A stretch of DNA of 64,000 bases. Source: Prevotella sp. (GTDB taxonomy: Bacteria > Bacteroidota > Bacteroidia > Bacteroidales > Bacteroidaceae). The stretch covers positions 1 to 64,000 of the forward strand of contig JAEEJK010000045.1 of the NCBI GenBank assembly GCA_016281815.1, given 5' to 3'. The notes below the pieces were generated by a model that saw only the letters and a program-made list of their open reading frames with translations, searched no databases and was not told where the DNA came from. A program made the translations under genes and the position numbers. Shown here one piece after another: positions 3,145 through 64,000 of the stretch (positions are counted from its first letter, which is position 1; each line of letters starts with the position of its first letter).

Positions 3145-4554
3145 CTACTTCAGCATCGTAGGAATGCGTTCTCCGCTTTCCAGGGCTTTTATTTGTGCCT
3201 GCGTGTCGTTGCCCACAGGTCTTGAGGTGAAGTCAGGAGTGTTGTAGGAATACAGCGACTGGGTGTAGAACTGCTTGGGGTCGCGCTGTGGCAGCATGAA
3301 GGGCTTGGTGGCTCTCCCGTCATGTCCTATGGAAGAGAGGTAGATACGGGAGTAACGCCCATCATCACGCCGGCTGGTAAACAGGAACCACTGACTGTCG
3401 CTGCTCCAGTTGTGGAAACTATCCGCCTGGCTGCTGTTGACAGTGTCGAGGGAACGGGACAGACCGGTCTTTAGGTCCAGAAGCCACAAGTCGCTTTCTG
3501 GATGCCAAATGGTGAAATAGCCATAGTCGGCAAGAGTGTACATCAGAAAGCGTCCGTCATAGGAAGGACGGGGCCAACTCACGCTTTTCCCTTCTGAGGG
3601 TGCATTGACAAGCGTATCCACTTTTTGCCCGATATGCCCTGTGGCTGGGTCGAAACTCACACGGCAGAGACTGTAGCGCTCCTTGTCGTAGTCGTTGGGG
3701 TAAACCTGACGGCGGGCGGTGGTGAAATACAGCCATTTGCCGTCGGGGGAGAAGGCAGGGCAGTTTTCTGCCCAGTATTTTTTCATGATAAGGGTGTCAT
3801 TGACAATCTGATGGGTCTCGGTGTCGTAGACAAATACGTCTGATGACGAGTCATACACCTCCACATTGTTCTCCTTCTTGATGTGGAACATCTGTGAGGT
3901 CTTGTTGGTGGAGAAAGCGCAGTAGCGTCCGCCAGGATGCCAATAGTGATAAACCATGGTGTCTTCGTCGGTATCTTGGTCTAGGAGTGACTTTTCTTCA
4001 AAGGTGCTCAACTCCCGCTCATATAAGCCCATTGGGCTGTCCTTGTCTTGACCAGATGTGATGTGGCGATAGGTGATGCCCCAGTCAGACAAGGCTGTTT
4101 TAGAGACATGGATACAGAAGTCGCGGTAACGTTTCCATTTTCCGTCACGTTTCGCACAGACAGTTACATTGAGCTGTCCGCCACGATTCTGTTTCACCAT
4201 GGCATGCCATATCTCTGTGTCGAAGTCGGTGCAGGCACCTTTGGAATGAAGCGTTCCGCCCCAGGCACCGTTCACTTCCACATCGATGGCTGTCACGCTG
4301 TCATCTGCCATTGCGAAATTGAGTGGTGCGATGCCGACAGGGATGGTAACCTCGACGTAGTCGGGATAGATGGCAGGCAACTCGTTCACCACCTCTGCTT
4401 TCTGTGGTCCAGAGGAACAGGCTGCCAACAGGCAGATGCACAGCAACAAACTAAAGAAAAAGACCGTCTGGGGCCATTGCCCTTTACGCAGGAGTAAGTT
4501 ATACTCTTGCGCTTTTTGTGTCTCGTTGGCTGCAGATAAACGGTCGGTCATCAT
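3145..4554 (-). CDS. TolB-like/PD40 beta-propeller lipoprotein (paralog lacking the CxxCH segment)
   Basis: Lipobox-like LLAACSSG; YWHPGGRYCAFSTNKTSQ, FSPDGKWLYFTTARR, SWPRPSYDGRFLMYTL repeats; collinear with the ORFs at 6245 and 9364. Confidence 0.75.
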   Translation of the reverse strand: MMTDRLSAANETQKAQEYNLLLRKGQWPQTVFFFSLLLCICLLAACSSGPQKAEVVNELPAIYPDYVEVTIPVGIAPLNFAMADDSVTAIDVEVNGAWGGTLHSKGACTDFDTEIWHAMVKQNRGGQLNVTVCAKRDGKWKRYRDFCIHVSKTALSDWGITYRHITSGQDKDSPMGLYERELSTFEEKSLLDQDTDEDTMVYHYWHPGGRYCAFSTNKTSQMFHIKKENNVEVYDSSSDVFVYDTETHQIVNDTLIMKKYWAENCPAFSPDGKWLYFTTARRQVYPNDYDKERYSLCRVSFDPATGHIGQKVDTLVNAPSEGKSVSWPRPSYDGRFLMYTLADYGYFTIWHPESDLWLLDLKTGLSRSLDTVNSSQADSFHNWSSDSQWFLFTSRRDDGRYSRIYLSSIGHDGRATKPFMLPQRDPKQFYTQSLYSYNTPDFTSRPVGNDTQAQIKALESGERIPTMLK

Positions 4555-5025: not shown

Positions 5026-6222
5026 CTATAGCACGAACTCGGCTGTGACTCCCCACTTCATCATATTACCTTTGCCTATCACAGACTTGTAACAGTCGCC
5101 ATGCAGGCGGGTGACGTGCTTGCCAACTGCCATTTGCACTCCTGCACCAAGATAGAGACCGAAATGGGCTGTGCTTTCCCAATCCATATCTAAAATTTTC
5201 TTGTTCTGGTAGATGCGGGTTTCATGATTTCCAAAATGATACACATAAAAACCGCCACCACGAACAAAAGGTACAATGCTCCCTTGCCCAAAGCACTTCA
5301 CTACACCCATGTGGCAAGAAATACGTCCTTTCTCATAGGTAGTGTGTGATGGCTCGTGCCCCCCGCGAACCATGGTGTCGTGCTCAAATTTTGCTTTTGG
5401 AGAGAAGGTGAGACCTATCTCCGCACTGCCGCCTTTCATCGTTCGTTCAATATCTATCTCTGTGGCAAAACCCAATTCAAATGCACCACCGTGGTAGGTC
5501 TCGTCCGGCAGATTTTGATTGATTGTTCTTTCATGGGAATAGTATGCATAACCTGCGAATACCTTGAAATGTGTTTTTGCCTTGTCGGATTCCTCCTTGT
5601 ACTCATACACCATACAGTTGCTGCCATCAGTACAAACATCATTGTGATAGTCGCGAACAATCTTGACCAGTTTCTTTCTCGACATCTCTTTCTCCTTATC
5701 CAAATCGTCAATGGCTTTCCTTGAGTCCTTCAGTAGAATCTTCACTTTTCCGTATTGTTCCCTCTGCTCCACTAGTTGGTCCTTTGCTTCATGAAGAGTT
5801 GATGACGATATTATTGACTTGTTGGTAAATTGGGCCATCTCACCATCTTCACGTTCAAAGAAAAAGTATTCATTATACTTGTCTGCTACACAGTACAGGT
5901 TCATTTTGCCTTGAACCATAAACTCTGCAAAGTATAATTGTGGGTCGCCATTGACGTTAAGTCGTCGAGTGACAAAAAACTTTCCATTGTGGTCAAACCT
6001 AAAGCATTCTATATCACCTGGTTTGTAGGTCTTGCTCTCGCTTTCTCCTTGGGCCTGGAAAACACATTTTTTTGACAGTATCTCGTTGGTGCGGAAGTCG
6101 AGAATACCTCTGACTGTGTCACCTGTATTGGTAATGATATATCCTGGCTTGGGGTTTGTCTGAGCCATAGAGAGCGCTACGCAAAAAAATAGCGAATAAA
6201 GAATAATGAATGATTTTCTCAT
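5026..6222 (-). CDS. Secreted/outer-membrane protein of unknown function (beta-strand-rich C-terminus, central coiled coil)
   Basis: Signal peptide MRKSFIILYSLFFCVALSMAQ gives start at 6222 (22 bp after the stop of the neighbouring gene) rather than 6471; C-terminus with alternating strands ending in ...VTAEFVL. Confidence 0.65.
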   Translation of the reverse strand: MRKSFIILYSLFFCVALSMAQTNPKPGYIITNTGDTVRGILDFRTNEILSKKCVFQAQGESESKTYKPGDIECFRFDHNGKFFVTRRLNVNGDPQLYFAEFMVQGKMNLYCVADKYNEYFFFEREDGEMAQFTNKSIISSSTLHEAKDQLVEQREQYGKVKILLKDSRKAIDDLDKEKEMSRKKLVKIVRDYHNDVCTDGSNCMVYEYKEESDKAKTHFKVFAGYAYYSHERTINQNLPDETYHGGAFELGFATEIDIERTMKGGSAEIGLTFSPKAKFEHDTMVRGGHEPSHTTYEKGRISCHMGVVKCFGQGSIVPFVRGGGFYVYHFGNHETRIYQNKKILDMDWESTAHFGLYLGAGVQMAVGKHVTRLHGDCYKSVIGKGNMMKWGVTAEFVL

Positions 6223-13565: not shown

Positions 13566-15497
13566 TTAATACAGAACTTTATATGTGTACTCAGATGCAG
13601 AAGCTTTTTCATCCCATCCAGGGTTCTGCTGCATCTTATCAACCATCAGAGTAATCTGAGCCTGAGGCTTCGGCAAGAAACCGTTGGTGTCAGCATAACG
13701 TTTAGCCCAAGAACAAGTCATGTGCGCCATAGGAATTTTGGCACCCTTCTGACCATAGCATACGATCATTTTACCCTTCTGTGCTTCGAGAGCCTTTGCT
13801 GCGTATGAAGATTCGCCAGAGTCAATACCTGACCAACGACGCATGTCATTGAAACGAAGTCCCTCTAATGCAAACTCCCAACGACGCTCATCTTGAAGAG
13901 CCTTCAAAGAGTAAGAAGTTGTCAGAGGCACACCGGCACGAGCCTGAACCTGATTCATATATTGTACATCACCAGTAAGTTCAGAAAGCATCAACAGAAC
14001 GTCAGCATAACGCATCAGGTAGTAGTCCTCGAAGTGGTCACCCTGCTGTTTGTTGTCAAGTGAACTGGAGGAATATCCCTCGCACTTTGACCACCATGAA
14101 TCGTTGTCAGCAGCGCAAGCATCAAGGTTGACATCAGCGTACTTCTTGACAGCATAGCCTGACTCCTCATTGTCGTCCTTCTCGTAGGTATAGGCTTCGA
14201 GTTCATTATCGAGGTCAATCAGAGTGGCTTTCTTACGAAGGTCTGTATAACCACCACTTCTCTCAGCATCTGTCCAGTCATCCCAAATATTGCAGGAAGG
14301 AGTACCCTGACCCCAGCCCTGGTTGAATGGATAAGTCTTGTGACGACGACCATTGTCATTGGTAGCACCATTACGAAGACCCCAGAAGCAAGAGAGATAG
14401 TTGGAATACATACGCGGGTTGTTGTATGTTCCACCAATTGCCCACTTGGAGGCATTCATAAACTGAATCTGGAAAATCTCCTCAGTGTTGCCGTTACCCA
14501 TACCAGGCTGGTCGAAGCAGTTCTCACGCTTCATGTCTGCGATGAAATCGTATGCATGGGTGCCTTCAAGGTTGCCGGTACCATCTGCGTTATCATGTGC
14601 CTCATCCCAAAGTAGACTGTTGGAATACTGCCAAAGTGAACGGAAGTCTTCGCAGAGCTTGTAACCGCCTGTAGAAACGATGTCTTTCAAACCTTCAACG
14701 ACTTGTGCCTTTGAAAGAGTACCTCCTTGGCAGCCCTCCTGCTCTACAAGATTAATAGTAGCATCACCAGTAGAGAGATCTGCAACTTTCTTGTAGAAGC
14801 CAGCCCAGAACATCCATGCACGTGCAATAAATGCCTCGGCAGCATACTTGTCAGCATGACCTGAGCCATTGGCTCTCTCTGGCTTCATGAGATTCTTGGC
14901 AGAAACGAAGTCTGAAATAATCTGTGGGTAGATGAACTCCTCTGCACTAACCTGCTGTTGCATCTCATCGGTAATAACAGTAGAGGTAATCAGGGGGACA
15001 TCGCCGTACAACTGGCTGAGCCACATATAGTAGAGACCGCGCATGAAATAGCCCTCACCGAGGAGTTGGTTGCGCTGAGCCTTCTGGGCTTCAGTCCACT
15101 CCACATTGTCGATGGTTTCAATCTGGTTGTTGGCACGTGATATACCACCATAGAGAAGGATGAAGTCCTGCTCATACTGGTTGGCACTTGCTGTTGTGAA
15201 ATGATGCAGTGACTTAGCCACATTGTCCTGCAAACCGCCACTGCCGTAGCAGTCATCAGACATGAGCGACCACCAATAGAAAGGATTATTCAAGATACCA
15301 CTTTGATCTCCGCCACCCAGCGTATTCATAATACTGTAGGTGGCTGCATTCAATGCCTCTACATCTCCTGGCTTACCAGGGAATGTGGCTGCAGTCAACT
15401 CTGTCACACGTGGATCAGTGTCCAGCATGTCGTTACAGGATGTGAACAAAGTTACTGCAGACAAAACAGCCAACGATGATAAAATATATTTCTTCAT
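13566..15497 (-). CDS. SusD/RagB-family lipoprotein
   Basis: LFTSCNDMLDTDPR lipobox; EGYFMRGLYYMWLSQLYGDVPLITS; DYYLMRYADVLLMLSELTGD; LKALQDERRWEFALEGLRFNDMRRW. Confidence 0.95.
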   Translation of the reverse strand: MKKYILSSLAVLSAVTLFTSCNDMLDTDPRVTELTAATFPGKPGDVEALNAATYSIMNTLGGGDQSGILNNPFYWWSLMSDDCYGSGGLQDNVAKSLHHFTTASANQYEQDFILLYGGISRANNQIETIDNVEWTEAQKAQRNQLLGEGYFMRGLYYMWLSQLYGDVPLITSTVITDEMQQQVSAEEFIYPQIISDFVSAKNLMKPERANGSGHADKYAAEAFIARAWMFWAGFYKKVADLSTGDATINLVEQEGCQGGTLSKAQVVEGLKDIVSTGGYKLCEDFRSLWQYSNSLLWDEAHDNADGTGNLEGTHAYDFIADMKRENCFDQPGMGNGNTEEIFQIQFMNASKWAIGGTYNNPRMYSNYLSCFWGLRNGATNDNGRRHKTYPFNQGWGQGTPSCNIWDDWTDAERSGGYTDLRKKATLIDLDNELEAYTYEKDDNEESGYAVKKYADVNLDACAADNDSWWSKCEGYSSSSLDNKQQGDHFEDYYLMRYADVLLMLSELTGDVQYMNQVQARAGVPLTTSYSLKALQDERRWEFALEGLRFNDMRRWSGIDSGESSYAAKALEAQKGKMIVCYGQKGAKIPMAHMTCSWAKRYADTNGFLPKPQAQITLMVDKMQQNPGWDEKASASEYTYKVLY

Positions 15498-51728: not shown

Positions 51729-52730
51729 ATGAAAAGACTATTATCTATATTGGTGGTATTTCTCATTTCCACCGCAATTAAAGCACAGGGCACACAGAAT
51801 TATTTGTTGGGTGATGTCAACAGGGACGGCAAAGTCACGGTTGCCGATGCGATGATGGTGGTGAACATCATCATGAATGGCTATACCTCTTTTTCAGTCA
51901 GTCCTACAGCCGTCTCCATACCTGCTGGAGGCACCGCTACGATTGATATCGAGGGCGGCTACAATGAATACGAGGTCACATCTTCCAATACCAATGTGGT
52001 CAAGGCTACGCTCAACGGTTCAACCATCACCCTCACTGCCGTGGCCAGCGGCGAGGCCAAAGTTATCGTCAAGGATGTGCTGACCATGAGGTATGTGGAA
52101 ATCCCTGTCAAGGTGGGATATCCTTCATCTCCATCCTTTCTTGCCTGCCCCGATGACCACCATCCCCATCTGATTGATCTTGGTCTGCCCTCTGGCACAA
52201 AGTGGGCGTGCTGCAACGTGGATACGGACCATCCCGAGAACCATAGTCCCACCAACTACGGTGGCTACTACGCCTGGGGCGAGACAGAGACGAAAACGAC
52301 TTATGAGCGTAGCAACTACATTCATTATGACGCTTCCCAAGAAACCTACCATGACCTCGGCAGTGACATCGCCGGTACGGAGTACGACGTGGCCCATGTG
52401 AAATGGGGCGGCAGTTGGGTGATGCCGTCAAAAGAGCAGCAAATCGAATTGATGGACAACTGCACCTACGAATGGACGACAGTGGACGGTGTCAATGGAG
52501 ATAAGTTCACTAGTAATATCAACGGCAGTAGCATCTTCTTGCCGGCATCTGGCGAATACCTCTTAGATGATTTGGTCAGACCAGGAATAACAGGTGACTA
52601 CTGGTCATCGACACAAGACTCGTTAGATTCGTCCAGAGTACCCCGCCTGCGTGTCTCTCAGACTAGTACTCGCGTGAACAAAATAGACCGCATTTATGGT
52701 CGGAGCGTCCGCCCGGTGGTCAGTAAATGA
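51729..52730 (+). CDS. Secreted dockerin-like / Ig-like / Fib_succ_major-type protein, paralog 1
   Basis: LLGDVNRDGKVTVADAMMVVNIIMNG (dockerin/EF-hand-like); FSVSPTAVSIPAGGTATIDIEGGYNEYEVTSSNTNVVKATLNGSTITLTAVASGEAKVIV; HLIDLGLPSGTKWACCNV...WGGSWVMPSKEQ...GDYWSST...YGRSVRPV. Confidence 0.85.
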   Translation: MKRLLSILVVFLISTAIKAQGTQNYLLGDVNRDGKVTVADAMMVVNIIMNGYTSFSVSPTAVSIPAGGTATIDIEGGYNEYEVTSSNTNVVKATLNGSTITLTAVASGEAKVIVKDVLTMRYVEIPVKVGYPSSPSFLACPDDHHPHLIDLGLPSGTKWACCNVDTDHPENHSPTNYGGYYAWGETETKTTYERSNYIHYDASQETYHDLGSDIAGTEYDVAHVKWGGSWVMPSKEQQIELMDNCTYEWTTVDGVNGDKFTSNINGSSIFLPASGEYLLDDLVRPGITGDYWSSTQDSLDSSRVPRLRVSQTSTRVNKIDRIYGRSVRPVVSK

Positions 52731-52843
52731 ATGCATCCTTTCCCAACGCGGAAGACGCAATTTGAAGACGCAAACTGAACCCTTTTATGTGCAAGGGCAG
52801 ACGCAGATTTTCAAGTTGTATTCAAGGCGAATTAATGTGAAAT

Positions 52844-54121
52844 ATGAAAAGAATATTCCTTGTCATCCTCAAGATCCTTGTTGGACTTTTGGGTTTTCTC
52901 ATCCTTGCCATAGGTTTGTTGCTCATCTTGGCACGCTGCCATCCTGAACTTATACAACGATTCTTTGAGGAGAAGCCGGAATATATCAGTTTTTCCGCAC
53001 TGCCGCATGACCGCGATTCCATGAAGGCAGATTTTGATGGCATTCACCAGATTGTGGCAGAGAATTACTCACTCTACCGTCAAAAAGGCATATCGATGGA
53101 CTCTCTCTACGATGTCTATTCTGCCCGCTTGCGCGACTCGGTTAAGACCAGTGATGACTATGGTGTGATGCTCATGGAGTATTTTGCTGACTTACATTGC
53201 GGACACGCATGCGCATTTTTCAGCGGAGAACATTTTGGTGGGGCGGAGCCCCTCTATATTGAAGGACGTCTTTTCCTTGACCATCCAGGTGATTATATCC
53301 GCCAACATGGATTCCGCGACAAGGACGAAATCGTTGCCATCAACGGAAAGCCCATCCCCATCTGGATGGCTGATAACATACGGTATCATGAAGGCTCTAC
53401 CGCTGCACAGAGGGCATTCAGAACAGCATCGGCTGCGCTCTCAAGTTATACCGACACTTTGCTGAACATCACCGTGGCTCGGGGTGGCGACACCATCTCA
53501 ATACCGCTGCCGCTCCAAGCGAAAGGCTTCCCGAACCCCAACATTTGTGAGAGAAAGATCCTGCAGGACTCCATCGGTTATATTGCGATCAACACCATGA
53601 GGAACGGTATTGTAGAGGTGTTCGACAGCCTTTATCCGTCGGTCAAGAGCCTCCCTTATCTGATTGTAGATGTACGCAGAAACGGAGGTGGGAACAGCCT
53701 GAATGGGGAGAAACTTTGCGAATATCTGCTGAAACGAGAGAAAAAGCATTGCTTGTATGACAAAACTCTCACGCCTCGTGCTGATGCCTATCGTGGAAAG
53801 GTGTTCCTGCTTATTGATACACGGACATTCTCCGCTGCAGAGAGTTTTGCCATCGATCTTTGGGAGAGTGGCGAGGTCATCCTGGTGGGATGTCCTACGG
53901 GTGGAGATACAGGAAGCAGTCCTGAAACTTTCAAATCGCCAGCCGGGCTTTCTTTCCGGATTCCCCTGCGAGAACCTCGTCTATCACCTAAGGGTTTCCC
54001 ATTGGAAGGTCGCGGGATACCTCCACATTACAAAGTGGCACAGACTGTGAAAGACTTCATGGCCGGGATTGACACACAGTTGGAATTTACACTCAGTTTG
54101 ATTCAAAAGGGCAAGGATTAA
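52844..54121 (+). CDS. S41-family (C-terminal-processing-like) peptidase with N-terminal TM anchor
   Basis: DFDGIHQIVAENYS, DLHCGHACAF, KSLPYLIVDVRRNGGGNS, VFLLIDTRTFSAAESFAIDL (catalytic Ser context), VGCPTGGDTGSSPE. Confidence 0.88.
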   Translation: MKRIFLVILKILVGLLGFLILAIGLLLILARCHPELIQRFFEEKPEYISFSALPHDRDSMKADFDGIHQIVAENYSLYRQKGISMDSLYDVYSARLRDSVKTSDDYGVMLMEYFADLHCGHACAFFSGEHFGGAEPLYIEGRLFLDHPGDYIRQHGFRDKDEIVAINGKPIPIWMADNIRYHEGSTAAQRAFRTASAALSSYTDTLLNITVARGGDTISIPLPLQAKGFPNPNICERKILQDSIGYIAINTMRNGIVEVFDSLYPSVKSLPYLIVDVRRNGGGNSLNGEKLCEYLLKREKKHCLYDKTLTPRADAYRGKVFLLIDTRTFSAAESFAIDLWESGEVILVGCPTGGDTGSSPETFKSPAGLSFRIPLREPRLSPKGFPLEGRGIPPHYKVAQTVKDFMAGIDTQLEFTLSLIQKGKD

Positions 54122-54130
54122 AGGTAAAGA

Positions 54131-54647
54131 TTTTTCAACACAGAGATACAGAGGTACAGAGATTTTTATGTGATTTTCAACGCAGTTACAGAGATTAAGG
54201 AATTAATGGGATATTATATGGTAATTATATGTTCATTCAACTTCCTCAAGTTCAAACTTATCTGAAATGAAGAGATGATCAAAAACCGCTTCGCTTCGGA
54301 AAAAAGAAGAAAAACTTTCTTGGATGATATTTGGCAAACGCTGATGCTTGAGATTTTTTTAAGTAGCGAGAGCAGAGCGATGCTTTGCATCAGCTATGCC
54401 GAGTCACGACAAAAAATCAGCGAAGGTAAAAAACGCCAAGGCGTTCGCAAAAAGGGGGAAAAAAGAGCCCTCTATGTAGGGTCAACGCCCCCCAACCCCC
54501 TCTAATCTTAGAGGGGGAGCCTGATTACTCCTGCTTCAGATGGCTGATTACTCTTGTTTCAGACGGCTGATTACTTTTGTTTCAGAAAAGCAATCAGGAG
54601 TGATGCTTTAATAATCTCTGTACCTTTGTAACTCTGTGTTGGAAAAT
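54131..54647. repeat. MITE-like intergenic element, copy A (about 35-bp imperfect terminal inverted repeats, no coding capacity)
   Basis: Left TTTTTCAACACAGAGATACAGAGGTACAGAGATTTTT; right ATAATCTCTGTACCTTTGTAACTCTGTGTTGGAAAAT (its reverse complement matches left). Confidence 0.7.
54521..54589. repeat. 23-bp tandem repeat, 3 copies
   Basis: CTGATTACTCCTGCTTCAGATGG / CTGATTACTCTTGTTTCAGACGG / CTGATTACTTTTGTTTCAGAAAA. Confidence 0.9.
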
Positions 54648-54778
54648 AATTTATGAAAAATTCGTGGACATTCGTGGCTATTCGTGTGAAAGATTTTCTT
54701 GGCGTATAATTATCATGTAATGATCCATTTAATTTTCCCTTATTTTGAATCTCTATTGGTACTATCATGGAAAAATGC

Positions 54779-54786
54779 TATATTTG
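54779..54786 (+). promoter_or_regulatory. TATATTTG -7 element of Fib_succ-like cassette 2
   Basis: 80 bp upstream of the ATG at 54859; conserved with cassette 3. Confidence 0.6.
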
Positions 54787-54858
54787 CACAATTGTAGGAT
54801 CTCAATGATGTTTGATTACTTCACTGAAACCAAAACGATAACAATAATTGTAACAGAT

Positions 54859-55851
54859 ATGAGGAAACTATTATCCTTTTTTATGGTGATGCTCATGGCC
54901 CATACCACCTATGCTCAGAGTTCACAGAACTATTTATTGGGTGATGTCAACAAGGACGGCAGGGTCACAGTTGCCGATGCGATGATGGTGGTAAACATCA
55001 TCATGAATGGCTACACCCCCTTCTCTGTCAATCCTACGGCAGTCACCATGTTTGCAGATGGTTCTGCTACGATTGATATCGAGGGCGGCTACAATGAATA
55101 TGAGGTCACATCTTCCAACACCAAAGTGGTTAAGGCTACGCTCAGCGGCTCCACCATCACCCTCACTGCCGTGGCCATAGGCGAGGCCAAAGTGACTGTC
55201 AAGGATGTGCAGACGTTCCGCACCATCGAGATACCCGTCAAGGTGGAAACTCCATCCTACCTCGCCTGTCCAGATGATCATCATCCGCACCTGATTGACC
55301 TCGGCCTGCCATCCGGCACGAAGTGGGCATGCTGCAACGTAGACACGGACCATCCCGAGAACCAAAGCCCCACCAACTATGGCGGCTATTATGCCTGGGG
55401 CGAGATGAAGACAAAAGACACATATTACCTTGACAACTACATCCATTGCGACGGCTCATTAAGTACCTGCCACAACCTCGGCAACGACATCGCCGGCACG
55501 GAGTACGATGTGGCCCATGTGAAATGGGGCGGCTCATGGGTGATGCCGTCAAACGAGCAGCGAGACGAATTGGTCAACAACTGTACCTATGAATGGACGA
55601 CGGTGGACGGAGTTAAAGGAGGCAAGTTCACAAGCAATAAGAACGGTGCGAGTATCTTCTTGCCTGCAGCGGGCGATCGCTCGGGCGACGACATCAATGA
55701 CGCCAGCAGTTACGGCTACTACTGGTCATCGACGCGGCTCCCGGCACACATTGGCTACGCGTACTACCTCTACTTCTCTTCGGACGACGTCAACTTGGGC
55801 AGCATAGGCCACCGCTACTACGGTCGGAGCGTTCGCCCGGTCGCCAGATAG
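54859..55851 (+). CDS. Secreted dockerin-like / Ig-like / Fib_succ_major-type protein, paralog 2
   Basis: MRKLLSFFMVMLMAHTTYAQ; LLGDVNKDGRVTVADAMMVVNIIMNG; HLIDLGLPSGTKWACCNVDTDHPENQSPTNYGGYYAWGE; SIFLPAAGDRSGDDINDASSYGYYWSST...RYYGRSVRPVAR. Start at 54859 (shared leader) rather than 54745. Confidence 0.85.
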   Translation: MRKLLSFFMVMLMAHTTYAQSSQNYLLGDVNKDGRVTVADAMMVVNIIMNGYTPFSVNPTAVTMFADGSATIDIEGGYNEYEVTSSNTKVVKATLSGSTITLTAVAIGEAKVTVKDVQTFRTIEIPVKVETPSYLACPDDHHPHLIDLGLPSGTKWACCNVDTDHPENQSPTNYGGYYAWGEMKTKDTYYLDNYIHCDGSLSTCHNLGNDIAGTEYDVAHVKWGGSWVMPSNEQRDELVNNCTYEWTTVDGVKGGKFTSNKNGASIFLPAAGDRSGDDINDASSYGYYWSSTRLPAHIGYAYYLYFSSDDVNLGSIGHRYYGRSVRPVAR

Positions 55852-56048
55852 GTGCATCCTTGTCCCGCCCCCTCGCCCGCAAACCCACTTGGGGTGGTGG
55901 TGGGGCTCGAAAAATGTGAATGTGAGTGGAAACAATTGCCAAAATGCGGACATGCATAAAGCAAGTCCTTACGACTTCTATGACAATTTTGCACACGCCA
56001 AAGGGCATACATAAAGTAAGCCCCAACAGTGTTTGATGAGGTTGATTT

Positions 56049-63681: not shown

Positions 63682-64000
63682 ATGAGAAAGTTATTATCCA
63701 TTTTTATGGTGATGCTCATGGCCATTACAACCCATGCTCAGAACAACTACAAGTTGGGGGATTTCAACCGAGACGGGAGGGTCACTGTTGCCGATGCCAT
63801 GATGGTGGTAAATGTCATCCTGAATGGTACACCTCCTCTCTTCGCCAACCAGACGTCCGTCACCATGTTCGCAGATGGCACTATCACGATTGGTATCGTG
63901 GACGGGCAAAATGAATATGAAGTCATATCTTCCAACACCAATGTGGTTACGGCGTCGCTCAGCGGTTCGGTCATCACCCTCACTGCTGTGGCCAACGGCG
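63682..64000 (+). CDS. Secreted dockerin-like / Ig-like / Fib_succ_major-type protein, paralog 3 (3' end outside window)
   Basis: Read by hand (not in the ORF track): MRKLLSIFMVMLMAITTHAQNNYKLGDFNRDGRVTVADAMMVVNVILNGTPPLFANQTSVTMFADGTITIGIVDGQNEYEVISSNTNVVTASLSGSVITLTAVANG... Confidence 0.85.
   Translation, partial: MRKLLSIFMVMLMAITTHAQNNYKLGDFNRDGRVTVADAMMVVNVILNGTPPLFANQTSVTMFADGTITIGIVDGQNEYEVISSNTNVVTASLSGSVITLTAVANG

Follow-up and report, generated by a model that had tools for sequence, protein, structure and literature searches.

Paralogous Genes of the Window

The window, that is, the whole stretch of 64,000 nucleotides of Prevotella sp. DNA analysed here, carries two paralogous genes, copies 1 and 2, and the beginning of a third paralog that is followed outside the window by a fourth (Table 1). 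In the first-pass annotation, made from the sequence alone, the two copies were described as sharing long regions and then differing in 28-29 C-terminal codons, and this description is borne out: 229/301 residues and 703/903 bases are identical outside the segment between the motifs YWSST and GRSVRPV, versus 5/29 residues and 33/84 bases within it. No other 29-codon stretch of the pair is as divergent as this segment, with the divergence climbing from about 20 codons before it. The number of NNC codons counted there in copy 2 was found to be correct and exceeds the 13.8 expected from the residues and the local codon usage (P = 0.013), with no excess by the same expectation in copy 1; taken alone, the count in copy 2 is suggestive but weak evidence for template mutagenesis. 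Copy 2 scores below the curated cut-offs of TIGR02145 (Fib_succ_major, 18.7 against 41.65) and PF07603 (Lcl_C, 16.4 against 34.9), and copy 1 gave no match to either family. A lectin fold of copy 2 is unsupported by its AlphaFold model, the top fold matches of which fall on the Ig-like part; among the 50 PDB fold matches listed for this model, which is partly of low confidence, none is described as a lectin fold or as a variable protein of a diversity-generating retroelement (DGR).

Table 1. Coordinates of the features in the window, in its continuation on the same contig (C64) and at the C49 retroelement (L038)
Feature	Position	Strand	Remarks
Copy 1	51729..52730	+	secreted; dockerin-like, Big_2-like and Fib_succ/Lcl_C-like regions
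Copy 1, variable segment	52614..52697	+	28 codons; adenine-template signature absent
TGCATCCTT motif, copy 1	52732..52740	+	just after the stop codon
Remnant of the palindrome 5' arm, copy 1	52780..52800	+	21-base match (CCCTTTTATGTGCAAGGGCAG); core and 3' arm absent
Copy 2	54859..55851	+	paralog of copy 1
Copy 2, variable region (VR)	55657..55847	+	191 bases with homology to the C49 template, 70% identity
Copy 2, most variable part of the VR	55735..55821	+	29 codons, NNC in 20/29
TGCATCCTT motif, copy 2	55853..55861	+	just after the stop codon; no palindrome core beyond
Paralog 3	63682..64000 (in the window)	+	ends outside, at C64:64653
Paralog 4	C64:64711-65721		fourth copy
C49 target gene	L038:1999-4131		carries the terminal (cis) VR
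C49 accessory ORF	L038:4295-4849		184 aa; conserved in G177 and G072
C49 template	L038: about 5030-5221		AAC-rich
C49 DGR RT	L038:5311-6492

The Retroelement on Contig C49 and its Relatives

As had been remarked at the outset, neither a reverse transcriptase (RT) nor a template repeat lies in the window, so that a DGR acting in trans from elsewhere was postulated, and a genome devoid of a DGR RT and an AAC-rich template would have told against it. Both are present in the same genome (G000: 4.1 Mb, 127 contigs, 92% complete), in a complete, chromosomal DGR on contig C49 that consists of a target gene, an accessory ORF, an AAC-rich template and the RT. Compared with the template, the cis VR of the target gene has mismatches at 33/51 adenines and 0/129 other bases and is one codon longer. 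The template contains a run of four AAC codons (L038, about 5170-5185), where the cis VR (about 4078-4095) and the template of the related genome G177 have one codon more, as if one AAC triplet had been lost from it. The RT scores above the cut-off of RVT_1, and among PDB entries it is matched best by 8ub7_A (E = 3e-35), which we take to be the DGR enzyme of BPP-1, with the motif IGNLTSQ aligned to IGSLTSQ. Judged from the sequence, the locus thus combines the two marks of a DGR, a DGR-type RT and a template/VR difference confined to adenines. The accessory ORF has no significant match in any family searched, with a weak one to MutS_I (E = 0.075). Between the template and the RT there is a perfect 8-bp hairpin with a GGAA loop (GTGCGGCA-GGAA-TGCCGCAC, L038:5270-5289), preceded by a T run and having an imperfect counterpart in G177.

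A second template or a second DGR-type RT was looked for in G000 and not found. The other RT matches of this genome were rejected as DGR enzymes. One is the RT of a group II intron, to which a second fragment probably belongs as well, and the other is an RT of the RT_UG26 type (contig C17, L002:1093-2358; PADLOC E = 1.3e-158) that is unrelated to the DGR.

An orthologous DGR with the same order of parts and its own template is found on contig C125 of G177, its VR being off at 29/54 adenines and 4/129 other positions. Of 27 additional loci that carry this RT (L157-L183), mostly from Bacteroidales MAGs and many from ruminants, 18 yielded a TR/VR pair with no more than 2 non-adenine mismatches in 90 bases, one of these, L182, being the G177 locus again; no pair was obtained at this threshold at the other nine, several of which are contig fragments. 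Two VRs, both fitting one template, are present at each of L162 and L166. In G177, further and mutually distinct RT fragments of the DGR RT clade lie at the edges of contigs C259 and C7 (L153, L154), which suggests a second DGR in that genome.

Comparison of the Copies with the Template

The VR of copy 2 mismatches the C49 template at 26/51 adenines and 28/129 other positions (P = 1.6e-4), and the C of the template AAC columns is kept at 16/19, with 10.3 expected (P = 5.5e-3). The two parts of the gene have different nearest relatives. Upstream of the VR these are the paralogs C117_4910 and C3, each 16% different, while at non-adenine positions of the VR they are C68 (17% different) and then the cis VR (22%). 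The VR ranking placed C68 before C3 and before C117_4910 in 1.0 and 0.996 of the bootstrap replicates, respectively, and the cis VR in 0.9995 and 0.967. At the adenine columns, copy 2 is 53% different from C68 and 63% from the cis VR. The distance from the VR of copy 2 to the template is also smaller than that from the upstream half of copy 2 to the cis gene, with P = 0.006 on bases; synonymous codons alone give P = 0.07, which counts against the overwriting of copy 2, and P = 0.005 is reached when the AAC third positions are added.

Since the divergence is low at non-adenine positions and saturated at adenines, mutagenic copying in trans would account for the VR of copy 2, rather than vertical descent or plain gene conversion. 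The VR appears to have been overwritten in trans, though not recently from the C49 template, the sole template found, from which it departs at 28/129 non-adenine positions versus 0/129 in the cis VR. The DGR origin claimed for the C-termini is supported in part, by a diluted adenine-template signature in copy 2, while the claim does not extend to the copies as current targets, considering these non-adenine mismatches and the absence of the palindrome described below. Templates of related species fit copy 2 no better than the G000/G177 template lineage, and in viral contigs no relative of copy 2 was found, the RTs there being only distant (28-36% identical).

The poorer fit of copy 1, already suspected, was upheld by mismatches at 28/51 adenines and 56/129 other positions, with no significant adenine bias (P = 0.11). 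The third positions of copy 1 at the AAC columns are at background level, and the distance of its VR from the template is not smaller than that of its upstream half from the cis gene. It had been advised to read the C-terminus of paralog 3 past position 64,000; neither paralog 3 nor paralog 4 has the template signature at the third positions of AAC columns.

Apart from the template, 35 copies of the C-terminal domain are readable to the end in G000. Their upstream synonymous codons are 43-60% different from the cis gene in all paralogs, i.e., near saturation. In the VR, the codons free of template adenines that keep their residue were compared with the template, and they are 21-30% off in C68, C62, three units of C117, C96, C47_1345 and copy 2, 38-46% off in C4, C32, C94 and C69, and 43-93% off in the remaining paralogs, with copy 1 at 56%. 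About a dozen remote copies thus seem to carry the signature to varying degree, as a graded series of decay, and the spread of distances may mean that the last overwriting took place at different times or that the templates were not the same. The G177 template is slightly nearer than that of G000 to some remote VRs, copy 2 included, as would fit an earlier state of one and the same template. Several remote VRs resemble one another more than they do the C49 template, such as C62 and one C117 unit with 13/129 non-adenine differences. On C117 (1-10000, L083), an open frame of 2144 aa contains at least five tandem domain copies, several of them with the template signature, though internal and lacking the 3' motif considered next.

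The 3' Flanks and the Palindrome

At nine VRs of G000 (C49 cis, C62, C4, C69, C32, C68, the last C117 unit, and copies 1 and 2), the motif TGCATCCTT is located 9-13 nt beyond the end of the VR, and at the templates of G000 and G177 it follows after 31-35 nt; it is absent behind the internal domain copies, C94, C3 and paralogs 3 and 4. It is common to a tenth VR, that of a C90 paralog (L088, about 14730-14990), in which the VR body is strongly diverged and the last bases and the 3' flank are identical to the cis target, so that this paralog is possibly another retired target. In the window, the motif occurs twice and only at copies 1 and 2, a count that is unremarkable (23/100 shuffles) in a position that is unusual. 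Among the loci of other species, L157, L159 and L160 have the sequence TGCATCC after both the VR and the template; it was not found in the others. Drawn by eye, two types of 3' flank are visible among the VRs.

About 47-61 nt past the VR end, a hairpin of 36-37 bp is formed behind the cis VR, C62, C32 and three VRs of G177 (z from -4.6 to -11.5); folded with DNA parameters, the G000 loci among them (cis, C62 and C32) have z values of -3.8, -10.2 and -11.0. In 19 VRs of other loci, z ranges from -1.9 to -12.6 and the longest stems from 19 to 47 bp, except for L159, whose fold is branched, with a stem of 6 bp. Intact targets in this RT clade are mostly followed by a strongly folding palindrome. 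Predicted stem length does not discriminate targets, and z overlaps marginally: C3, C94 and paralogs 3 and 4 have stems of 21-32 bp with z from -0.2 to -2.2, and z is -2.2 and -1.0 for the weak 32-bp stems of C3 and paralog 3, while one intact target reaches only -1.9. The gap-tolerant measure of the longest hairpin was therefore not used alone, as such unrelated flanks also reach 32 bp. In the four copies sharing the core (C32, C62 and two of G177), 11 of the 37 pairs show changes on both sides that preserve the pair. A 60-base core query (E < 1e-4) retrieved four sites in G000 (C32, C62, C49, C4) and four in G177 (C277, C2, C56, C125), all of them just behind a domain copy, with the copy at C4 broken. 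No Rfam match was obtained at the palindrome loci.

The core is absent at copy 1, copy 2 and C68, and the hairpin z at copies 1 and 2 is near 0; because both lack the palindrome of intact targets, they are most likely retired. The palindrome and the fit to the template do not run in parallel in G000, as C62 and C32 possess the palindrome yet are 16-19% off, and C68 without it is 13% off, which makes a second template plausible.

Proposed Mechanism and Alternatives

Copy 2, and perhaps also copy 1, is probably a retired DGR target, the DGR of C49 or an earlier or sister version of it having rewritten paralogs in trans. The C49 RT would copy the AAC-rich template, mutate adenines and rewrite the C-terminal surface of the Fib_succ_major/Lcl_C-like protein encoded in cis, and this DGR, or its earlier or sister version, would have done the same to remote paralogs. 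The C-terminus of copy 2 would then descend from the C49 template lineage and not from the paralogs that resemble its upstream half; in copy 1, a target-like 3' flank may have remained where the signature did not survive. This flank is the one feature pointing to copy 1 as perhaps a former target. The window copies would have fixed their last variant and drifted since.

A second DGR, with a template that the incomplete assembly lacks, might still be diversifying copy 2, and perhaps copy 1, in trans; this is unlikely, though worth serious consideration. An assembly of such fragmentation and completeness could miss a template, the mutual closeness of several remote VRs and the two flank types agree with a second source, and G177 has its further RT fragments at contig edges. 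However, G000 yielded no second template or DGR-type RT and no close non-adenine match to copy 2, the nearest, C68, being different at 22/128 positions, and the palindrome is absent at both window copies. Still less probable is that the C-terminus is merely a fast-evolving binding surface and that the window copies were never under DGR action; this would suit copy 1, with its VR lacking adenine bias, and the paralogs without the signature also diverge more in the VR region (0.48) than upstream (0.34), but copy 2 contradicts it by its adenine-column excess, its third-position conservation and the incongruence between VR and upstream half. An ordinary gene conversion that supplied the copy 2 VR from a different paralog, with no direct DGR action, recommends itself by the closeness to C68 and the long stretches common to the paralogs and is very improbable, as conversion would bring the bases of the adenine columns too, and copy 2 differs from C68 at 26/49 of these versus 22/128 others.

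Relation to Known Systems and Significance

Homing in the Bordetella phage BPP-1 requires an inverted repeat located downstream of the VR, and the phage hairpins are GC-rich, with stems of 7-10 bp and GRNA loops, 4-34 bp from the VR (PMC3240598). The C49 system resembles that of BPP-1 in the adenine-mutagenic copying from template to VR, the sequence-related RT and the inverted repeat downstream of the VR, and is unlike it in the length and distance of the C49-type stems and in the accessory ORF without a meaningful family match. By analogy, the palindrome may be needed for targeting here, and its loss may have ended the diversification.

The DGRs of Treponema denticola have two to seven targets, some of which are over-mutated or were judged leftovers (PMC4891356); both systems pair one template and RT with a number of remote targets that are paralogs, whereas G000 has about a dozen signature-bearing remote copies, of another domain family. 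In Thiohalocapsa PB-PSB1, remote VRs were attributed to a template at another site of the genome (PMC10907252), and these trans VRs match the template at all non-adenine sites, which copy 2 does not. DGR targets of the human microbiome with DUF1566, Fib_succ_major or Big_2 domains and a C-terminal VR (PMC4159848) are of the same kind in domains and VR position; however, they were found beside or by matching templates, while the window copies are seemingly decayed remote ones. Remote and leftover targets are thus known already (PMC4891356, PMC10907252), and what is new is the long palindrome and how many graded copies there are.

It may be speculated, with more doubt than confidence, that in this Bacteroidales DGR clade the long palindrome is an address label whose carriers gain variants in trans and whose loss freezes the variant, so that a single hypermutation engine would leave an archive of fixed binding proteins. 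One genome would hold DGR targets that range from fully template-matched to fossil, along with a palindrome as a candidate mark of target status, and both may bear on the choice of remote DGR targets and on the way in which the diversification of a gene ends.
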